The notes beneath the pieces are model-generated. The model ran no database searches and was not told the origin of the DNA. It worked only from the letters and a program-made list of their open reading frames with translations. This document shows, in pieces, positions 1 to 51,888 of a stretch of DNA of 64,000 nt. The translations under genes and the position numbers were made by a program. The first letter of the stretch is position 1. Each line of letters begins with the position of its first letter. The stretch comes from Aequorivita aurantiaca (GTDB lineage: Bacteria > Bacteroidota > Bacteroidia > Flavobacteriales > Flavobacteriaceae). The DNA is taken from positions 124,001 through 188,000 of the forward strand of contig NZ_JAUGQQ010000004.1 of NCBI RefSeq assembly GCF_030410135.1, read 5' to 3'.

Positions 1-2468
1 TCGGGACAGGCGGGATAACCCGGCGCGGGACGGATTCCTTTATATTTTTCTGAAATCAACTCTTCGTTGGAAAGAATTTCTTCGGAAGCGTAGCCCCAAT
101 AGTTGGTGCGGACTTCTTTGTGAAGATATTCCGCAAACGCTTCCGCCAAGCGGTCTGCCAAAGCTTTTACCATTATAGCATTGTAATCATCGTGATCCGC
201 AACATATTTGGCGGCCAATTCCGCAGTTCCAAAACCGGCGCTCACGCAGAAACAGCCCACGTAATCTTGGATTCCAGTTTCTTTGGGCGCAATGAAATCT
301 GCCAAAGCAATATTGGGTTTTCCTTTAGCCTTTTGGGATTGTTGGCGAAGAGTTCTAAAAAAATTCTGAATTCCGAATTCTGAATTCTGAATTATTATAT
401 CATCATTTACAGAATTCGCCTCAAAAATTCCAAAGACAGCGCGCGCTTCCAACAATTTTTCAGAAATTATTTTGTCGAGCATTTGTTGTGCATCCTTAAA
501 TAATTCCGAAGCTTGTTCGCCCACCACTTTATCGGTTAAAATATTGGGATATCTTCCGTGCAGCTCCCAACTTCTAAAAAAAGGCGTCCAATCTAAATAA
601 TCCAACAATAGATTTAAATCGAAGACTTTTAGAATGTGAACTCCCAACTGATTCGGTTTAACTATTTCAGAAGTTTTCCAATCTATTTGAAATTTATTTT
701 TCCGTGCTTCGGAAATTGGGAGATATGTTTTTACCTTTTGGCGTTTTAAAAAATCCTTTCGGAATGTATCATATTCCTGTTTTATATTTTCTTTATAGGA
801 AGTCGAAGTTTCCTTTTTCAGCAAATCGCCAACAACGGTAACCGCGCGGGAAGCGTCGTTTATATGTACGACTGCGCATTCATATTCGGGATCAATTTTA
901 ACTGCCGTGTGCGCACGGCTCGTAGTTGCACCGCCAATCAATAAGGGAACCTTAAAATTTTGCCGCTGCATTTCTTTCGCTAAAAAAACCATTTCGTCCA
1001 ACGAAGGCGTAATTAATCCGCTTAAACCGATGGCATCCACATTTTCCTCTTTTGCGGTGGCGATTATTTTTTCCGGCGGCACCATTACGCCCAAATCGAT
1101 TATTTCATAATTATTGCACGCCAAAACAACGCCGACAATGTTTTTACCGATGTCGTGTACATCGCCTTTCACAGTTGCCATCAATATTTTTCCCGCGTTT
1201 TTGGAATCCGTAATCTGTGGGTTTTTCAACTTTTCCTCCTCAATAAAGGGGAGCAAGTACGCCACTGCTTTTTTCATAACCCGCGCGCTTTTTACCACTT
1301 GCGGCAGAAACATTTTTCCGCTGCCAAAAAGGTCGCCGACCACATTCATCCCAATCATTAAATTCCCTTCAATTACTTCAATTGGTTTATTAGCGGCTTG
1401 TCTTGCTTCTTCAATATCTTCTAAAATAAATTCATCAATTCCTTTTACCAACGCCCTTGTAATACGGTTTTGCAACGATTCTTCGCGCCAAGAGAGATCA
1501 ATTTTACTTTCCTTTGCACTTCCTTTTACGGTCTCGGCAAAATCGAGCAAACGTTCCGTTGCGTCTTCACGTCGGTCGAACATAACATCTTCAACGCGCT
1601 CCAATAAATCCTTCGGAATATTATCATAAACCTCCAGCATTGATGGGTTTACAATCCCCATATTCATCCCGGCTTGAATTGCGTGGTACAAAAACACGGA
1701 ATGCATCGCCTCGCGGACGGGATCATTACCCCGGAAACTAAAGGAAACATTGCTCACCCCACCGCTTACGCTCACATGCGGCAGATTTTCCCGAACCCAG
1801 CGCGTGGCCTCGATAAAATCAATAGCGTTTTTTCGGTGCTCATCCATTCCCGTTGCAACGGGAAAAATGTTTAAATCGAAAATAATATCCTCGGGCGCGA
1901 ATTTCACTTTGTTCACCAAAATGTCATAGGAGCGTTTGGCGATTTCTATCCTTCTGTCGTAATTATCGGCTTGGCCCGTTTCGTCAAACGCCATCACGAT
2001 TACCGCCGCGCCGTAGCGTTTTATAAGTTTTGCGTGATGGATGAATTCTGCCTCACCTTCCTTTAAACTGATGGAATTCACAACACATTTTCCCTGCACA
2101 ACCTGCAAACCGGCTTCAATAATTTCCCATTTACTACTGTCAATCATAATAGGAACACGGGAAATATCGGGTTCGGCAATCACAAGATTTAGGAATTTCA
2201 CCATCGCTTCCTTTCCATCAATCAAACCATCGTCCATATTGATGTCAATGATTTGTGCGCCGTTTTCAACTTGATCCCGCGCAACGGCAAGCGCAGCTTC
2301 AAAATTTCGTTCTTTTATAAGACGAAGAAACATTTTTGAACCGGCGACATTGGTGCGTTCCCCCACGTTAATGAAATTACTTTCGGGGGTGATGACGAGC
2401 GGTTCAAGACCGGATAATTTCAGGTATTTTGGTTGTTGGTTGATAGTTGTTGGTTGATGGATTTTCAT
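1..2468 (-). CDS. metH: Methionine synthase, cobalamin-dependent, C-terminal part (partial)
   Basis: Transfers the methyl group of methyltetrahydrofolate to homocysteine through cobalamin. This gene carries the pterin, B12 and reactivation modules; the homocysteine module is encoded separately at 3920-4933. Visible in order: pterin-binding domain opening with [12 protein letters not shown] near residue 35, a helical B12 cap, the cobalamin-binding motif [11 protein letters not shown] near residue 436, and the SAM-dependent activation domain, which runs off the left edge. The ATG at 2466-2468 overlaps the TGA of the four-helix gene (ATGA). Residues 2-13 ([12 protein letters not shown]) are translated from a short repeat, and the family sequence resumes at [12 protein letters not shown] second repeat, at 362-393, is read in frame inside the activation domain near residue 695. 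Family assignment is very secure. Confidence 0.97.
362..393. repeat. Reiterated GAATTCTGAATTC tract in frame inside metH
   Basis: Three to four tandem, slightly diverged copies of GAATTCTGAATT(C). The tract is translated on the minus strand as part of MetH ([13 protein letters not shown]). The same word (GAATTCTGAATT) occurs at 19985-19996 at the end of the GSCFA gene, so this is a repeat family and not a chance MetH sequence. It falls where MetH homologues normally carry a variable surface loop just before the conserved LRQQ...KPN..LADFIAP segment. Confidence 0.75.
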
Positions 2469-2984
2469 AATAATTTTTTGTAATAATTTATAAATCCGTT
2501 CAACAGTTTTTTACAACTTTCAATTTGAGAAATGATTTCCTTCAATTGATTTTCATTTATAAAATTTTGATCCAATGCAAGCAATAATTGCGTTTCCAAT
2601 TCATAAAGTGAACCTCTTGAAATATATAAAAATTGAATTGTGTCTTTCGAGGTTCTTCTTCCACAGCCTTCGGCGATATTTGACGGTATGGAAACAGCAC
2701 ACCTTCTTATTTGATTCGTCAATCCATATATTTCCTCCCTCGGAAAACTTTTTGTCAACTCATAAATTGAATTGACCAGCTTTCGAGAAAATTTCCAAAC
2801 ATCCAAATCTCTATATTCCATATGGTTGTTAGTTCTTAGTTGATGGTTGATGGACTTTTCTTGTTATTTTTTGATATTGATAAATTCATTTTCCGTTTTC
2901 AATTTTCAAATTGCCATTTATAAAGTTTATTTGGTTTTATTGAATGCTTTTAACCATCAACTATCAACCAACAACAATCAACTA
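2431..2984 (-). mobile_element. IVS-like cassette 1: four-helix gene between inverted repeats, at the metH start
   Basis: Left arm GTTGTTGGTTGATAGTT (2432-2448) and right arm AACTATCAACCAACAAC (2959-2975) are perfect 17-nt reverse complements enclosing the four-helix gene. A third, direct copy of the repeat lies at 2823-2852, immediately upstream of that gene. The left arm is inside the metH coding region and encodes its new N-terminus. The right arm supplies the TAG stop of the upstream threonine-dehydratase-like gene (2982-2984). No transposase is present. The structure resembles intervening sequences of bacterial 23S rRNA, which also carry a four-helix ORF between complementary arms. Calling it a mobile element is inference. 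Confidence 0.5.
2465..2821 (-). CDS. Four-helix bundle protein (23S rRNA IVS protein family)
   Basis: A 118-residue protein of the four-helix-bundle family first known from intervening sequences of 23S rRNA and related to the Avd accessory protein of diversity-generating retroelements. Diagnostic features are the N-terminal [14 protein letters not shown], the central [17 protein letters not shown] and the later [10 protein letters not shown]. It is basic and entirely helical in appearance. Its TGA overlaps the metH ATG by four bases (ATGA), so translation is probably coupled. It sits within the met operon in the same orientation, flanked by the repeats of cassette 1. The biochemical role of stand-alone members is unknown, although RNA or DNA binding is likely. 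Two relatives lie in this window at 48938-49345 and 50118-50492. Confidence 0.9.
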
Positions 2985-3923
2985 AAATGGTAAATTCTTT
3001 AAATCCACATTTCCTCCGGAAATAATAATTCCAACTTTTTTATTTTTAAACCGTTCTTTTTTCCGAAGCAAACCTGCAAAAGCTACCGCACTGCTTGGCT
3101 CAACTATAATTTTCATCCGTTCCCAAATAAGTTTCATTGCTGAAATGATTTCGGTTTCTTCAACACGAATTATTTCTGAAACATATTTTTTTATTATCGG
3201 AAAATTGACATCGCCGAGGAAGGTTTTAAGTCCGTCGGCAATTGTATTTGTGGTTTCATTGAATTCTATTTTTCCACTTTGAAGACTTCGAAATGCGTCG
3301 TCAACTCCAAATGGTTCGCCGCCGATTGTTTGGCAGTTATTTCCGAAATAATTCACAGAAAGGGAAGTCCCCGCAATCAATCCGCCGCCGCCAACGGGCG
3401 TGAAAACATAATCCAAATCCGGGTGCGTTTGCAGCAATTCCGCGGCTGAAGTTGAGTTGCCAAGAATTACATTTCTGTCATTTGATGGATGAATAAATGT
3501 TGCACCTGTTTCTTTTTGGATTCTTTCCGCTTCGGTTTCACGGGCGATTGGAGTAGATTCAGATTCCGTGATTATTCCGCCGTAACCTTTTACTGCTTCC
3601 TTTTTTACTTGTGGCGCATTTTCAGGCATAACGATATATGCTTTTACGCCAAGATTTCTCGCCGCCAAAGAAAGTGCCTGCGCAAAATTTCCTGAGGAAT
3701 GTGTTACAACCCCAGCTTTTTTCTGTGCTCGCGAAAGTTGTAAAATAGCATTCGTCGCACCGCGCATTTTAAAAGCGCCCATCTTTTGAAAATTCTCGCA
3801 TTTGAAGAAAACTTCGGCACCGGAAAGTTCATTTAAAAATGCAGATTTCAGAACGGGCGTGTTGTGAACATACGGTTTAACGCGATTGCACGCCTCTTCA
3901 ACTTCTTGTTTTAATGGAATCAT
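2982..3923 (-). CDS. PLP-dependent threonine dehydratase / serine racemase-like enzyme
   Basis: Fold-type II PLP enzyme of 313 residues. The PLP lysine lies in FKMRGATNA (about residue 52), the phosphate-binding glycine loop is VGGGGLIAG, and the C-terminal IIISGGNVDL is typical of the threonine ammonia-lyase / serine racemase / threo-3-hydroxyaspartate dehydratase group. There is no C-terminal ACT domain, so it is not the feedback-regulated biosynthetic IlvA. Its ATG overlaps the TGA of the upstream homocysteine methyltransferase gene (ATGA at 3920-3923), so it is translated as part of the split-metH operon. Its stop codon comes from a repeat arm. It may feed serine or threonine carbon or control their levels. 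The exact substrate cannot be told from sequence. Confidence 0.88.
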   Translation of the reverse strand: MIPLKQEVEEACNRVKPYVHNTPVLKSAFLNELSGAEVFFKCENFQKMGAFKMRGATNAILQLSRAQKKAGVVTHSSGNFAQALSLAARNLGVKAYIVMPENAPQVKKEAVKGYGGIITESESTPIARETEAERIQKETGATFIHPSNDRNVILGNSTSAAELLQTHPDLDYVFTPVGGGGLIAGTSLSVNYFGNNCQTIGGEPFGVDDAFRSLQSGKIEFNETTNTIADGLKTFLGDVNFPIIKKYVSEIIRVEETEIISAMKLIWERMKIIVEPSSAVAFAGLLRKKERFKNKKVGIIISGGNVDLKNLPF

Positions 3924-5086: not shown

Positions 5087-5107
5087 TGAAGGAAAAACCT
5101 ATTTGTT

Positions 5108-5211
5108 GTTATCTATTCCGCAAAAAACGGATAGAATGTAGCACCTTTTCCGAAAGTTCGGGAGGTTGCTAAGGCGTCAAAGGGTCTATTCCCTCGGCCT
5201 TTCTTGATAAC
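5108..5211 (-). ncRNA. SAM-I (S-box) riboswitch in front of split metH
   Basis: On the minus strand the S-box signature is plain: GTTATCAAGAAAGGCCGAGG at the 5' end, GACGCCTTAGCAACCT in the core, AAGGTGCTACATTCTATCC in the 3' half, and closing P1 strands GTTATC/GATAAC at 5206-5211 and 5108-5113. A TTACTTTG promoter-like box lies upstream at about 5240. The aptamer sits between the osmC stop (5283) and the homocysteine methyltransferase start (4933) and so controls the metH unit. The 349-bp gap 4934-5282 holds this element, the inverted S-box fragment at 5074-5086, and no gene. Confidence 0.95.
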
Positions 5212-5282
5212 ATTTAACTATGAATATGAACTTGAACAAAGTAACGGTATAAATTTATAAATTCAAAAAAAGATTTGAATCT

Positions 5283-8195: not shown

Positions 8196-8202
8196 TCTTG
8201 TC

Positions 8203-8318
8203 GTTATCTATCGTCAATTCCGAAAATTTCAGAATCGTTGTAGAATGTAGCACCTTCTTTCCGGAGAAAGGGTTGCTAAGGCGTCATAGGGTCTATTCCC
8301 TCGGCCTTTCTTGATAAC
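8203..8318 (-). ncRNA. SAM-I (S-box) riboswitch in front of metB-hom-osmC
   Basis: The minus strand shows GTTATCAAGAAAGGCCGAGG, GACGCCTTAGCAACCC, AAGGTGCTACATTCTACAAC and closing P1 strands at 8313-8318 and 8203-8208. It is nearly identical in its first 30 nt to the copy at 5108-5211 and differs mainly in the variable P3/P4 arms. It begins about 30 nt after a TATATTTG -10 box (8349-8356). Confidence 0.95.
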
Positions 8319-8348
8319 ATTTCAATAAAGTTTTGAACTTTGTGAGAG

Positions 8349-8437: not shown

Positions 8438-8452
8438 CCCAAGACAATTTTA

Positions 8453-8499
8453 GAGGAAAAATTTGATTGATTGCAACCTCAATAAAAAATGCTAAAGGC
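8453..8499 (+). ncRNA. SAM-II-like riboswitch upstream of metK
   Basis: Leader with GAGG (8453-8456) pairing with CCTC (8477-8480) as P1, a loop containing GATTGATTGCAA, then AATAAAAAATGCTAAAGG. The segments TTGCAA-P1-ATAAA...GCTAAA-GG match the conserved core of the SAM-II (metA motif) pseudoknot, in which loop ATTGC pairs with the downstream GCTAAA. It lies on the metK transcript, 67 nt before the ATG. The 490-bp gap 8076-8565 holds two divergent promoters, the SAM-I element and this one; no gene is seen there. Confidence 0.7.
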
Positions 8500-8565
8500 A
8501 GTGAAAACTACCCTTCGGCGCTCTCGTCAAATCTTCTGTAAAATATAAATTTTTAAAACCATTTT

Positions 8566-26419: not shown

Positions 26420-26490
26420 GTTTTTAAACTTCTAAACCTATAAATTTTTAAACCTTTAATTTTTAAACTTTTAAACTCTTAAACCTCTAA
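26420..26490 (+). repeat. TTTTTAAACCT word tract before the second TPM gene
   Basis: Six or more diverged tandem units of the type TTTTTAAACCTNTAA fill the gap between the two TPM genes and end directly at the N-terminus of the second. A sister tract lies at 31162-31242 before hutU. Confidence 0.75.
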
Positions 26491-30968: not shown

Positions 30969-31130
30969 ATGCTTTTTCCAAAGAAAAATATACCCCTCGA
31001 AGAAGGCGATTATTACCTTACGCCCGAAGGCTACAAATGTTTTACGGCGCAGTATCATTTAAAACGTGGCTATTGCTGCCAAAGCGGTTGCCGCCACTGC
31101 CCGTATGGGTTTGATAAAAGTAGGCTGTAG
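30969..31130 (+). CDS. DUF5522-type small cysteine-rich protein
   Basis: 53 residues: MLFPKKNIPLEEGDYYLTPEGYKCFTAQYHLKRGYCCQSGCRHCPYGF and a short tail. The CCxxxCxxCPYG cluster with preceding YHLKRG is the DUF5522 signature, probably a metal-binding knuckle. Function unknown. The last four residues and the TAG stop come from the 7-bp tandem repeat at 31120-31153, so the native C-terminus was probably altered. Confidence 0.82.
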   Translation: MLFPKKNIPLEEGDYYLTPEGYKCFTAQYHLKRGYCCQSGCRHCPYGFDKSRL

Positions 31131-31153
31131 GCTGTAGGCTGTAGGCTGTAGGC
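31120..31153 (+). repeat. GTAGGCT tandem repeat (period 7)
   Basis: Nearly five perfect copies of GTAGGCT. It overlaps the 3' end of the DUF5522 gene and supplies its stop codon. Perfect copies suggest recent expansion and possible length variation between strains. Confidence 0.9.
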
Positions 31154-31161
31154 AAAAATAT

Positions 31162-31242
31162 TTCTTATAAACTAAACTTTTAAACGCATAAACTTTTAAA
31201 CTTAAAATATCAACTCATAAACTAATCGACTCATTGACTACT
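31162..31242 (+). repeat. TTTTAAAC / CTCATAAACT word tract before hutU
   Basis: Reiterated ACTTTTAAAC, AACTCATAAACT and GACTCATTGACT words fill the gap up to the hutU ATG. Same style as the tract at 26420-26490. No clear promoter is visible in it. Confidence 0.65.
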
Positions 31243-48362: not shown

Positions 48363-48381
48363 TTTTTATAGATTTAATAAA

Positions 48382-48406
48382 CCCTTCGACTGCGCTCAGG
48401 GTGACA
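48382..48406. repeat. CCCTTCGACTGCGCTCAGGG REP-like unit
   Basis: Second, identical copy, between paaD and paaG. Both gene junctions around paaG carry the unit in the same orientation. Confidence 0.85.
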
Positions 48407-48415
48407 TTTAGAAAT

Positions 48416-48916
48416 TTATTTCAAACATTTAAAATAATCAAATGGTTCGTGGCAATCGTCACATTTAAACAGTGCTTTACAGGCCGTTGAACCGAATTGA
48501 CTCACTAAATGTGTGCTTGTACTTCCGCATTGTGGGCATTTTACCAATTTTTTATCGCCCAACAAAACATCTTTATCGTGCGTTTCGGAAAGCGGACGCG
48601 CAATACCGTATTCCTCCATTTTCTGAAGCCCTTCTTCACTAATCCAATCCGTGGACCACGCTGGGGAAAGTACCAATTCAACTTCTGTCCTTTTTCCAAT
48701 TTCAGAAAAAGCAGCTTTTAAATCGTCTGCAATTACATCCATCGCTGGGCATCCGGAATAGGTTGGTGTAAGTTTTATTTGAACTATCCCATTCACTTCC
48801 ACAGCTTCGCGAATTACACCCAAATCCAAAACTGAAAGCACAGGAATCTCAGGGTCTGAAACGGTTTTCAGAATTGGGATTAAATGTGATTCAATATTTA
48901 AATTTTCAACTAACAA
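48416..48916 (-). CDS. paaD: PaaD, MIP18-type maturation factor of the phenylacetyl-CoA epoxidase
   Basis: 166 residues: MIP18/DUF59 domain (LKTVSDPEIPVLSVLDLGVIREV-like, TPTYSGCPAMDVIADD) and a C-terminal zinc ribbon (CPQCGSTSTH ... CKALFKCDDCHEPFDYFKC). Needed to mature the epoxidase iron centres. The only start before the conserved domain is a TTG (48914-48916) inside the repeat arm of cassette 2; a stop codon lies immediately before it. The original start has therefore been replaced by repeat sequence. Confidence 0.92.
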   Translation of the reverse strand: MLVENLNIESHLIPILKTVSDPEIPVLSVLDLGVIREAVEVNGIVQIKLTPTYSGCPAMDVIADDLKAAFSEIGKRTEVELVLSPAWSTDWISEEGLQKMEEYGIARPLSETHDKDVLLGDKKLVKCPQCGSTSTHLVSQFGSTACKALFKCDDCHEPFDYFKCLK

Positions 48917-49339
48917 TTATCAATACTCAATTTTCAATTATTTTTTCGATTTCGCTGTTAGAATACTTTTTGAGAAAATGGCGATTAATTCCTCGCATTC
49001 TTTTAAACTTTTTTCTGCATTATCAATATCCCTTAAAAGATTGGCTCCATTTTGGATTTTGAGATTTACTCTCGATTCTTTCAGTTCTTTTAAGACAATT
49101 CCCATTTTGTGAATAAAATCTTTCGCAGATTCTGCACCTTGAACCTCTCCATAATTTAAAGCTGCGCCAGTTGAAGATCTTATTAGCTGTTTTGATAAAT
49201 GATCCAATGCATAGTTATATTCAAGTTTCTTAAAGAGATTAATACAAAGAATTGCAAAATCAATTAATCTATCCTCCAAATCAAATTTTCTTTCCACACT
49301 ATTTTTGTATTGAAAATTGTTAATTGTTAATTGAATATT
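48901..49339 (-). mobile_element. IVS-like cassette 2: four-helix gene between inverted repeats, at the paaD start
   Basis: Arms AATTTTCAACTAACAATT (48901-48918) and AATTGTTAATTGAATATT (49322-49339) are reverse complements at 16 of 18 positions and enclose nearly all of the four-helix gene. The left arm contains the paaD start. The right arm is read as the first residues of the four-helix protein (LNIQLTIN). Outside the arms the paaC stop follows directly. Same design as cassettes 1 and 3, with a different arm sequence. Confidence 0.5.
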
Positions 49340-49345
49340 GAGCAT
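48938..49345 (-). CDS. Four-helix bundle protein (23S rRNA IVS protein family), copy 2
   Basis: 135 residues. Family features: FDLEDRLIDFAILCINLFKKL, then LSKQLIRSSTGAALNYGEVQGAESAKDFIHKMGIVLKELKESRVNL. This is the subgroup with RSSTGAALNYGE rather than RRAAxSIxxNIAEG. Residues 1-12 (MLNIQLTINNFQ) are translated repeat. The gene begins three bases after the paaC stop and ends 21 bases before the paaD start. A role in phenylacetate degradation is not expected. Confidence 0.88.
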   Translation of the reverse strand: MLNIQLTINNFQYKNSVERKFDLEDRLIDFAILCINLFKKLEYNYALDHLSKQLIRSSTGAALNYGEVQGAESAKDFIHKMGIVLKELKESRVNLKIQNGANLLRDIDNAEKSLKECEELIAIFSKSILTAKSKK

Positions 49346-49348
49346 TTA

Positions 49349-50104
49349 TTACCAAGTCATATTCGGATATGTGCGCTGCATATATTGCAAATCGGCCAAA
49401 ATATAGCCCATGTGCTCCGTGTGAACGCCTTCTTTTCCGCCTTTGGTGAAATATTTATTTTCGGGAATTGCGAGTGTTGCTTCATTTAAAATTTCGGAAA
49501 CCTCTTCGTAATATTTTTCTTTAAAAGTGGAAACATCTACGCCAACTCCATTCTTAGCCATTTCGGTTTCTGCTTCTGTCATAAAAAAAAGTTCATCCGT
49601 AAATCGCCACAGATCGTCAATTGCTTCCTGCATCTTTTGATTGCTCTCTTCAGTTCCGTCGCCTAAGCGTTTCACCCAATCCGATGAAAATCGTTTGTGG
49701 TAACTTACTTCTTTAATACTTTTTTTAGCAATTGCGGCCAAAGTTTCGTCTGGGCTATTCTGAAGTTTTTCCAATAACATAAAATGGTAAACATCAAACA
49801 GGAATTGGCGACCAATTACATATCCAAAGTGTGTATTGGGCTGTTCAACGAGCAAGCAATTTCTGTATTCGCGTTCAATTCGGAGGAAGGCGATATCATC
49901 TTCTGTTTTTCTGTCGCCAGTTAACTTTGCTGCATATTGATAGTAACTTCGCGTTTGCCCCAATAAATCCAACGAAATATTAGTAAGTGCAATATCGGTT
50001 TCCAAATTTGGGCCGTGACCGCAAAGTTCGCCCAATCGCTGTGCGAGGATTAGGGAATTGTCGGCGATTGTTAGGATGAAATTAAAATTAAAGGAATTAG
50101 GCAT
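49349..50104 (-). CDS. paaC: Phenylacetyl-CoA epoxidase subunit PaaC
   Basis: 251 residues, ferritin-like: LTIADNSLILAQRLGELCGHGPNLETDIALTNISLDLLGQ, VEQPNTHFGYVIGRQFLFDVYH and the late HTEHMGYILADLQYMQRTYP. PaaC is the structural, non-catalytic partner of PaaA. The ATG (50102-50104) lies inside the left arm of cassette 3, and residues 1-4 (MPNS) are encoded by that repeat. Confidence 0.95.
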   Translation of the reverse strand: MPNSFNFNFILTIADNSLILAQRLGELCGHGPNLETDIALTNISLDLLGQTRSYYQYAAKLTGDRKTEDDIAFLRIEREYRNCLLVEQPNTHFGYVIGRQFLFDVYHFMLLEKLQNSPDETLAAIAKKSIKEVSYHKRFSSDWVKRLGDGTEESNQKMQEAIDDLWRFTDELFFMTEAETEMAKNGVGVDVSTFKEKYYEEVSEILNEATLAIPENKYFTKGGKEGVHTEHMGYILADLQYMQRTYPNMTW

Positions 50105-50522
50105 TTGGGATTAGGGATTAGTGGTTTCGTTCTTGAATTTTTTTTCTAAGCGAGGAAAGCATTTTTGTTAATTCAGATAAATACATTCTGTTTTCCTCGT
50201 CTTCTTTCTGAGAAATGTAGTTTCTTCTTTTGGATTTTGTACTGCAAGAGACACATTCATTACAACTATAAATTGAATAGTTAATATGTTTGATAAATTG
50301 CGCGTCACTTCCTGGATATCCTTCTGAAATATTTAGCGCAATTGAATCGGCCGCCCTTCTAAACTGTGAAGAAAGTGCGTATAATTCATGATTAGGAAAT
50401 TTCATTACTAACGTATTTATAATCTCTCCGAAATCCATGGCTTTTTGATAGACTTGTAAACCTTCAAATTTAAAATGATAGTTACTTTTCATACTATTTC
50501 CTAATGCCAAATTCCTAATGCC
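50093..50522 (-). mobile_element. IVS-like cassette 3: four-helix gene between inverted repeats, at the paaC start
   Basis: Arms at 50093-50115 (GGAATTAGGCATTTGGGATT then AGG) and 50500-50522 (CCTAATGCCAAATTCCTAAT then GCC) are reverse complements at 20 of 23 positions. They enclose the four-helix gene exactly. The left arm holds the paaC start codon. The right arm ends five bases from the paaB stop codon (50527). Same layout as cassettes 1 and 2. Confidence 0.55.
50118..50492 (-). CDS. Four-helix bundle protein (23S rRNA IVS protein family), copy 3
   Basis: 124 residues from the ATG at 50490-50492 (MKSNYHFKFEGLQVYQKAMDFG); a TTG six codons earlier lies in the repeat arm. Family features: FEGLQVYQKAMDFGEII, YALSSQFRRAADSIALNISEGYPG and FIKHINYSIYSCNECVSC. 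Copy 1 and this one share the RRAxSIxxNIxEG motif but are clearly diverged, so this is not a recent duplication. Confidence 0.9.
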   Translation of the reverse strand: MKSNYHFKFEGLQVYQKAMDFGEIINTLVMKFPNHELYALSSQFRRAADSIALNISEGYPGSDAQFIKHINYSIYSCNECVSCSTKSKRRNYISQKEDEENRMYLSELTKMLSSLRKKIQERNH

Positions 50523-50526
50523 TCAA

Positions 50527-50817
50527 TTACATATGCTTCACCTCATCCGGTAAATCATAAAAAGTGGGATGTCGGTAAATTTTATCCTGTGCGGGCTCAA
50601 ACATTTCGCCATTGTGTTCGGGGTTTGATGCTGTAATATTTTTGCTTTCCACCACCCAAATACTTACGCCTTCATTTCTGCGGGTATAAACATCGCGGGC
50701 GTTTTCCATTGCCATTTCCGCATCGGCAGCATGAAGGCTTCCGAAGTGTCGATGCTCCAATCCGTTTTTACTGCGGACAAATATTTCCCAAAGGGGCCAG
50801 TTTTTCTTTTCAGACAT
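50527..50817 (-). CDS. paaB: Phenylacetyl-CoA epoxidase subunit PaaB
   Basis: 96 residues, the normal PaaB length: WPLWEIFVRSKNGLEHRHFGSLHAADAEMAMENARDVYTRRNEGVSIWVV. Small bridging subunit of the PaaABC(D)E epoxidase. A CTCACGTCTCACGTCTCAC tandem word (50865-50884) lies in the 73-bp gap to paaA. Confidence 0.96.
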   Translation of the reverse strand: MSEKKNWPLWEIFVRSKNGLEHRHFGSLHAADAEMAMENARDVYTRRNEGVSIWVVESKNITASNPEHNGEMFEPAQDKIYRHPTFYDLPDEVKHM

Positions 50818-50864
50818 TAGATATTAAATTTGGGATGTTAGACTTCAGATTTTAAACGCTTTTT

Positions 50865-50884
50865 CTCACGTCTCACGTCTCACA
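50865..50884. repeat. CTCACGT tandem word between paaB and paaA
   Basis: Three near-perfect copies of CTCACGT (period 7), in the gap between two subunit genes of one enzyme. Confidence 0.7.
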
Positions 50885-50890
50885 TCTATT

Positions 50891-51847: not shown

Positions 51848-51888
51848 CTTTTTATGCTTTAAGCTTTAGGCATTAAGCCGTAAGCTAG

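Follow-up and report, generated by a model that had tools for sequence, protein, structure and literature searches.

Intervening sequences (IVSs) that carry an S23p open reading frame are known from the 23S rRNA of Leptospira, Coxiella and Xanthomonas, where they occupy helix 9, 25 or 45. The function of the S23 four-helix proteins and the origin of the IVSs have been a puzzle for decades, and intergenic heptamer arrays are so far without explanation. The Coxiella IVS has a 28-bp terminal stem that is cut by RNase III, and GACAGAT heptamers, tandemly repeated in variable number, lie just upstream of its S23 ORF (PMC4990558); these heptamers tie the rRNA IVSs to the elements described here, which are found within operons. 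TAACTGA and other heptamer arrays have been reported between genes, with examples that include Aequorivita and other Bacteroidota, and are absent at the matching junction in relatives (MacGregor 2015, PMC4679880). They have the 7-nt period in common with our arrays, but PMC4679880 connects them neither with four-helix genes nor with inverted pairs and describes no match between protein and repeat, and our search of open-licence papers found nothing that reports an association of heptamer arrays with a four-helix protein. REP/REPIN sequences with their RAYT genes are also comparable, in that a small gene lies between inverted repeat units and gene-less copies occur elsewhere; the four-helix elements, in contrast, have no HUH/Y1 transposase domain, and their units are 7-nt arrays whose spelling depends on the protein subfamily.

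The window, that is, the whole stretch of 64,000 nucleotides of Aequorivita aurantiaca that was analysed (contig NZ_JAUGQQ010000004.1, positions 124,001 to 188,000), contains three such genes, the first of which lies between paaB and paaC.

50495-50543, minus strand: upstream (left) heptamer array of gene 50118, reading GGCATTA GGAATTT GGCATTA GG on the minus strand
50118-50492, minus strand: four-helix-bundle gene (S23/IVP family) at the paaB-paaC junction (PF05635, 8.5e-26; TIGR02436, 4.8e-26; pI 9.0)
50073-50120, minus strand: downstream (right) heptamer array of gene 50118, an inverted copy, which holds the paaC ATG at 50102-50104 (TRF period 7 at 50092-50121)

A first-pass annotation had enclosed this gene in complementary arms of 23 nt. 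The pairing is real, with 20 of 23 positions complementary between 50093-50115 and 50500-50522 and only 1-10 after shifts of 1-3 nt, but the arms are degenerate 7-nt tandem arrays and not simple 23-mers. When loci are scored by the best inverted local match between their 150-base flanks, a score of at least 17 being taken as strong arms, the 50118 gene obtains 20-21. The start of paaC does lie within the right array (ATGCCTAATTCC...), as the annotation had proposed.

Two more genes of the window, at 2465-2821 and 48938-49345, had been placed in the same family, and both match PF05635/TIGR02436 above the curated cut-offs. They are listed with their arrays and with a pair of arrays that encloses no gene.

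49301-49345, minus strand: left array of gene 48938, reading CAATTAACAATTAACAATTTTCAA on the minus strand (TRF period 7 at 49315-49333)
48938-49297, minus strand: four-helix gene at the paaC-paaD junction (PF05635, 2.1e-10), with a GTG start deduced from homologs
48890-48939, minus strand: right array of gene 48938, reading TTGAAAATTGAGTATTGATAATTGTTAGTTG on the minus strand, with the apparent TTG start of paaD inside (TRF period 7 at 48890-48939)
2952-2988, minus strand: left RGTTGWY array of gene 2465
2822-2853, minus strand: further array beside the start of gene 2465 (TRF period 7 at 2839-2853)
2465-2821, minus strand: four-helix gene of the MEYRDLDVW subfamily (repeat RGTTGWY), located upstream of metH (PF05635, 8.9e-42)
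2417-2468, minus strand: right-hand CAACNNN array of gene 2465, which encodes an N-terminal extension of MetH
50819-50889, minus strand: gene-less array pair at the paaA-paaB junction, left AGACGTG and right GTCTAACATC, with weak self-complementarity (self-inverted-repeat score 11)

The ORF 48938-49345 stands as a four-helix gene but not in its full length: its ATG at 49345 lies in the array and, since homologs begin with MERKFDL past the array, the ORF is probably over-extended and the start is likely the GTG at 49297, so that the left array overlaps only the false start of the gene. This locus has arrays of reversed polarity, and its arm score with the long ORF start is only 12-13. In agreement with the first-pass annotation, the next gene starts in or beside the arm at all three loci: besides PaaC, PaaD appears to begin with a TTG inside the right array of gene 48938, and the MetH ATG (2466-2468) overlaps the stop of the four-helix gene (ATGA), the array being read as the MetH N-terminus. 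The paaA-paaB junction, gene-less in the window, holds in sister species a four-helix cassette with AGTATTGAG arms. Arrays of period 7 or 8 also occur at 26422-26490, 31120-31203, 51851-51886 and 362-393, where there is no four-helix gene and, in most cases, no inverted partner, and a palindrome at 48380-48406, CCCTTCGACTGCGCTCAGGGTGAC, recurs at empty paa and metH junctions of sister species. The arms match no known RNA family of Rfam, whose matches in the window are SAM riboswitches elsewhere, namely two SAM-I and one SAM-II (5106-5213, 8201-8320 and 8447-8506), which lie in the methionine region, upstream of the four-helix gene linked to metH; defence-system models gave no match.

What these elements share with the 23S IVSs is a homologous four-helix protein, complementary terminal arms and an ORF in the same sense as the host transcript. 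They are unlike them in that they sit at junctions of protein genes with subfamily-specific heptamer arrays on both sides, reach approximately 5-20 copies per genome, encode a protein under purifying selection and show no indication of excision. All three genes of the window lie between protein genes, and the window has no rRNA match; because the 23S rRNA location is lacking, we regard the operon element as a variant, and not a member, of the 23S IVSs. The earlier description of a class of cassettes that resemble IVSs, with arms complementary to each other, the orientation of the operon, a position at its gene junctions and contact with the following start codon, is borne out beyond the window. 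The best period is 7 in 111 of 170 arms and 8 in 44, and the self-match of the arms reaches 0.51 at a lag of 7 nt and 0.49 at 14 nt, versus about 0.30 at most other lags and 0.37 at lag 8. At 151 of 156 aligned loci it is the left array that is G-rich, with its inverted copy on the right. Both neighbours run in the direction of the four-helix gene at 101 of 121 loci and both oppose it at 3, while 45% of ordinary genes are co-directional, and the cassette lies between the stop of one gene and the start of its neighbour.

The homologous protein, the terminal complementary arms and the co-direction are equally what one would expect of a true RNA intervening sequence, a cassette that leaves the mRNA, as in 23S rRNA, after its paired arms have formed a stem and RNase III has cleaved it; the Coxiella IVS, which RNase III does cut and which has heptamers before its S23 ORF, points the same way. 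Excision from the mRNA, which the first-pass annotation had put forward, is nevertheless not supported, because it would remove start codons, the right array carrying the start and N-terminal codons of MetH, PaaC and PaaD, and because G-U pairs are not enriched among the arm mismatches (132 G-U versus 187 A-C, with 137 versus 182 expected from composition). Moreover, a protein-coding mRNA would be severed, not spliced, and we consider this explanation improbable. Gene-less CTCTGTGCCTCTGTGG/CCACAGAGGCACAGAG hairpins occur at the atpA-atpG junction (L160, L163, L165, L172, L175-L178 and L182) and at several metH junctions; their opposite polarity results in many sense-strand A-C mismatches, and the antisense fold is the stronger one in most of them.

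That arms should be commoner at four-helix genes than at ordinary genes was confirmed, scores of at least 17 being reached at 67 of 92 Aequorivita loci versus 3 of 125 ordinary genes (Fisher 7e-31). The mean score is 19.9 for the four-helix loci of the genus, 11.3 for the 125 ordinary genes, taken from the window and four stretches of the genus, and 10.1 (99th percentile 17) for control windows that keep the spacing but are displaced along these loci. The other 25 of the 92 Aequorivita loci score below 17, that is, stand-alone four-helix genes with weak arms do exist. All 28 genomes of the genus contain four-helix matches, 5-21 per genome; for the genome of the window the count is about 11 genes, including an interrupted one. 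A four-helix gene broken by a stop and a frame change (L011/L012, G000:C33:116411-116712) has no clear arms, and a divergent one (L009, G000:C3:45731-48922) has GACAACC arrays on both sides that are direct, not inverted. The same layout is found in about 12 other families of Bacteroidota, and 79 loci of named genera, including Flavobacterium, Maribacter, Aquimarina, Chryseobacterium, Polaribacter and Algibacter, have a mean arm score of 18.5 versus 10.1.

The first-pass annotation had taken the arms of the three genes to be unrelated in sequence. This view had to be abandoned: the arms obey a heptamer specific to the protein subfamily, and those of the window differ because the three genes belong to three subfamilies with different repeats. 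The notion that arm sequences are locus-specific and arbitrary was likewise dropped once spelling was shown to track subfamily at the loci of named genera. Outside Aequorivita, members of the 2465 subfamily (59-74% protein identity), with 12 kinds of downstream gene, are accompanied by GTTGNNNGTTG in the left arm or CAACNNNCAAC in the right (GTTGN3GTTG / CAACN3CAAC) at 64 of 77 loci, while the same pattern is found in other subfamilies at 1 of 87 and 1 of 29 loci (2/116) and is absent from the neighbouring 400-1400 nt. It is present at 38 of 47 metH sites and at 24 of 28 non-metH sites, which have 11 further kinds of downstream gene. The consensus of this subfamily is RGTTGWY, with a modal number of 4 repeats per arm and 4-5 on the right. 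Among pairs of loci without homologous neighbours, the repeat is shared by 4-6% at 30-50% protein identity and by about 60% above 60% identity, much of the latter value coming from one large subfamily. Distant relatives of the other two window genes have mostly kept inverted arms, several with related spellings; an exception is the MHNFQEL group, which is about 72% identical to MNVLND, the subfamily with repeat AGTATTGAG, and yet has a different repeat. This correspondence between protein and repeat is the central result of our sequence comparison, and it may reflect binding of each protein to its own repeat.

The arrays also follow the presence of the family. Period-7 arrays numbered 0 in 360 kb from 17 Bacteroidota genomes without four-helix genes, 14 in 400 kb of family-positive genomes and 9 in the window, with hardly any arrays of other periods, although phylogeny confounds this contrast because Aequorivita itself contributes 10 of the 14. 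Among Flavobacteriaceae genomes, 10 of the 14 that encode the matching subfamily have RGTTGWY arrays, versus 26 of the 135 that do not encode it (p 1e-4); a control pattern, RGTTGWY read backwards, also occurs. One may ask whether these are ordinary slippage-prone intergenic microsatellites among which four-helix genes lie by chance, given that arrays of heptamers have been described from both Bacteroidota and cyanobacteria (PMC4679880) and that copy number varies. Such a coincidence is already contradicted by inversion with fixed polarity, by subfamily-specific spelling across genera and by the lack of arrays in the family-negative genomes, and we regard it as very improbable.

Sister species vary at one and the same junction, as the first-pass annotation had led us to expect, with empty, gene-less or alternative states at paaB-paaC, paaC-paaD, atpA-atpG and metH. 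The paaB-paaC junction holds either a 50118-type gene with ATTAGGC-type arms, a gene of a different subfamily with GAAATC arms, the GAAATC-armed subfamily with an unrelated GAAGTTCAAGATGAA array, a gene-less hairpin or a short junction. In L118 (G025), L120, L127 and probably L105 it is occupied by a GIY-YIG gene between palindromes of the CCCGCGAAGGCGGG / ATTCCCGCGAAGGCGGGAATC type, which, having its own inverted repeats, is a second and unrelated small cassette at this junction. Genome G027 has a solo left array there, next to a paaC 95% identical to that of the filled genome G009, which looks like a deletion between short direct repeats. At the atpA-atpG junction, each of the 27 genomes has a cassette or else a hairpin without a gene, of which there are two kinds, and upstream of an acyltransferase gene several subfamilies are found, each with its own repeat. 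The metH site is filled in five genomes, and most copies at metH sites may be vertically inherited; in G001 it is reduced to an 18-nt gap that retains CCAACC, and because this remnant is kept, loss is more likely than a site that was never filled. Neither a transposition event nor a target-site duplication was seen at the compared junctions, of which the near-clean one of G001 holds the remnant. As in mobile elements in general, the same cassette is found at different sites and the occupancy of one site varies. The sequence comparisons thus far support a cassette that would move or be exchanged, use the host operon and have ends matched to its own protein.

The same binding could, however, serve regulation and not mobility, the ring protein recognising heptamers in the mRNA and controlling its own operon and the gene-less hairpins, much as the trp RNA-binding attenuation protein (TRAP) wraps RNA; what we propose here is an analogy only (a ring and regularly spaced short repeats), without homology to TRAP. 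The subfamily-specific repeats, their tight modal number and fixed polarity, the purifying selection and the recurrence of the elements in metabolic operons (metH, metF, paa, atp) would all be accommodated, as would the finding that many species have a hairpin without a gene at one and the same junction: at atpA-atpG, a gene-less AGTATTGAG hairpin is present in 8 of 10 genomes with the AGTATTGAG-armed subfamily versus 1 of 17, counts that carry no phylogenetic correction. Against this, junctions of sister species hold different subfamilies, GIY-YIG cassettes or nothing, there is no conserved regulon, and G-U pairs are not enriched. Regulation in place of mobility therefore seems to us rather unlikely; regulation through the same binding still deserves consideration as an alternative, and it is compatible with mobility.

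Same-site orthologs of the protein have a median dN/dS of 0.075 (about 0.08), which indicates purifying selection, and all members of an alignment of ten share the residues Q37, R40, N48, E51 and E74. The four-helix proteins are mildly basic (median pI 8.6), and solved structures of relatives include 2GSC and 2RLD. Xcc0516 (2GSC) has been described as a homopentameric toroid (PMC4990558). By analogy, the mildly basic proteins and the ring-shaped relative would fit a ring that binds nucleic acid, and it is tempting to speculate from five subunits and 4-5 repeats per arm that one repeat is taken up per subunit. No recognised catalytic domain is present, Pfam at E<=0.001 matching S23 and bAvd models only. 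The Avd proteins of diversity-generating retroelements (DGRs) belong to the same structural superfamily of pentameric four-helix proteins, but the window proteins fall below the family cut-offs (bAvd 33.8 of 40 bits; DivGenRetAVD 31.2 of 80 bits), and neither reverse transcriptase, template nor variable repeat accompanies them. This weak similarity could suggest an Avd-like accessory protein that acts with a reverse transcriptase in trans, as part of a retroelement. The window's genome, with about 11 four-helix genes, has no RVT_1 match, nor do several other genomes with 6-11 genes; a reverse transcriptase is thus apparently not needed, the proposal is mostly contradicted, and it is to our mind the least credible of those considered here.

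On balance we lean towards a small IVS-like element between protein genes, a mobile cassette that inserts between the genes of operons and whose ring protein recognises its own heptamers. The protein, presumably a pentamer, would bind these heptamers in single-stranded DNA or RNA, each subunit taking up about one; such recognition would set the ends of the mobile cassette, which would rely on the host operon for its expression, and arrays without a gene would represent either remnants or trans-mobilised copies. A wider and more tentative proposal, which we would not yet back, is that of a phylum-wide class in which a pentameric ring reads a 7-nt-periodic array at one repeat per subunit, spelling and protein co-evolving; the 23S IVSs would then be its ribosomal branch, and the unexplained arrays of Bacteroidota, perhaps also those of cyanobacteria, its footprints.

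Since the link between protein and repeat is subfamily-specific, both the function of S23 proteins and the origin of the arrays become testable. The link predicts the DNA or RNA that each protein binds and gives the ends of the element, it would explain the period-7 arrays of those Bacteroidota that carry these genes, and the many natural pairs of protein and repeat could allow a recognition code to be read. Four-helix genes of the Flavobacteriia type, with GTTGNNN arms, were also encountered on contigs labelled as metagenome-assembled genomes of Bifidobacterium breve and Klebsiella pneumoniae (L289 and L309), which look mis-binned.
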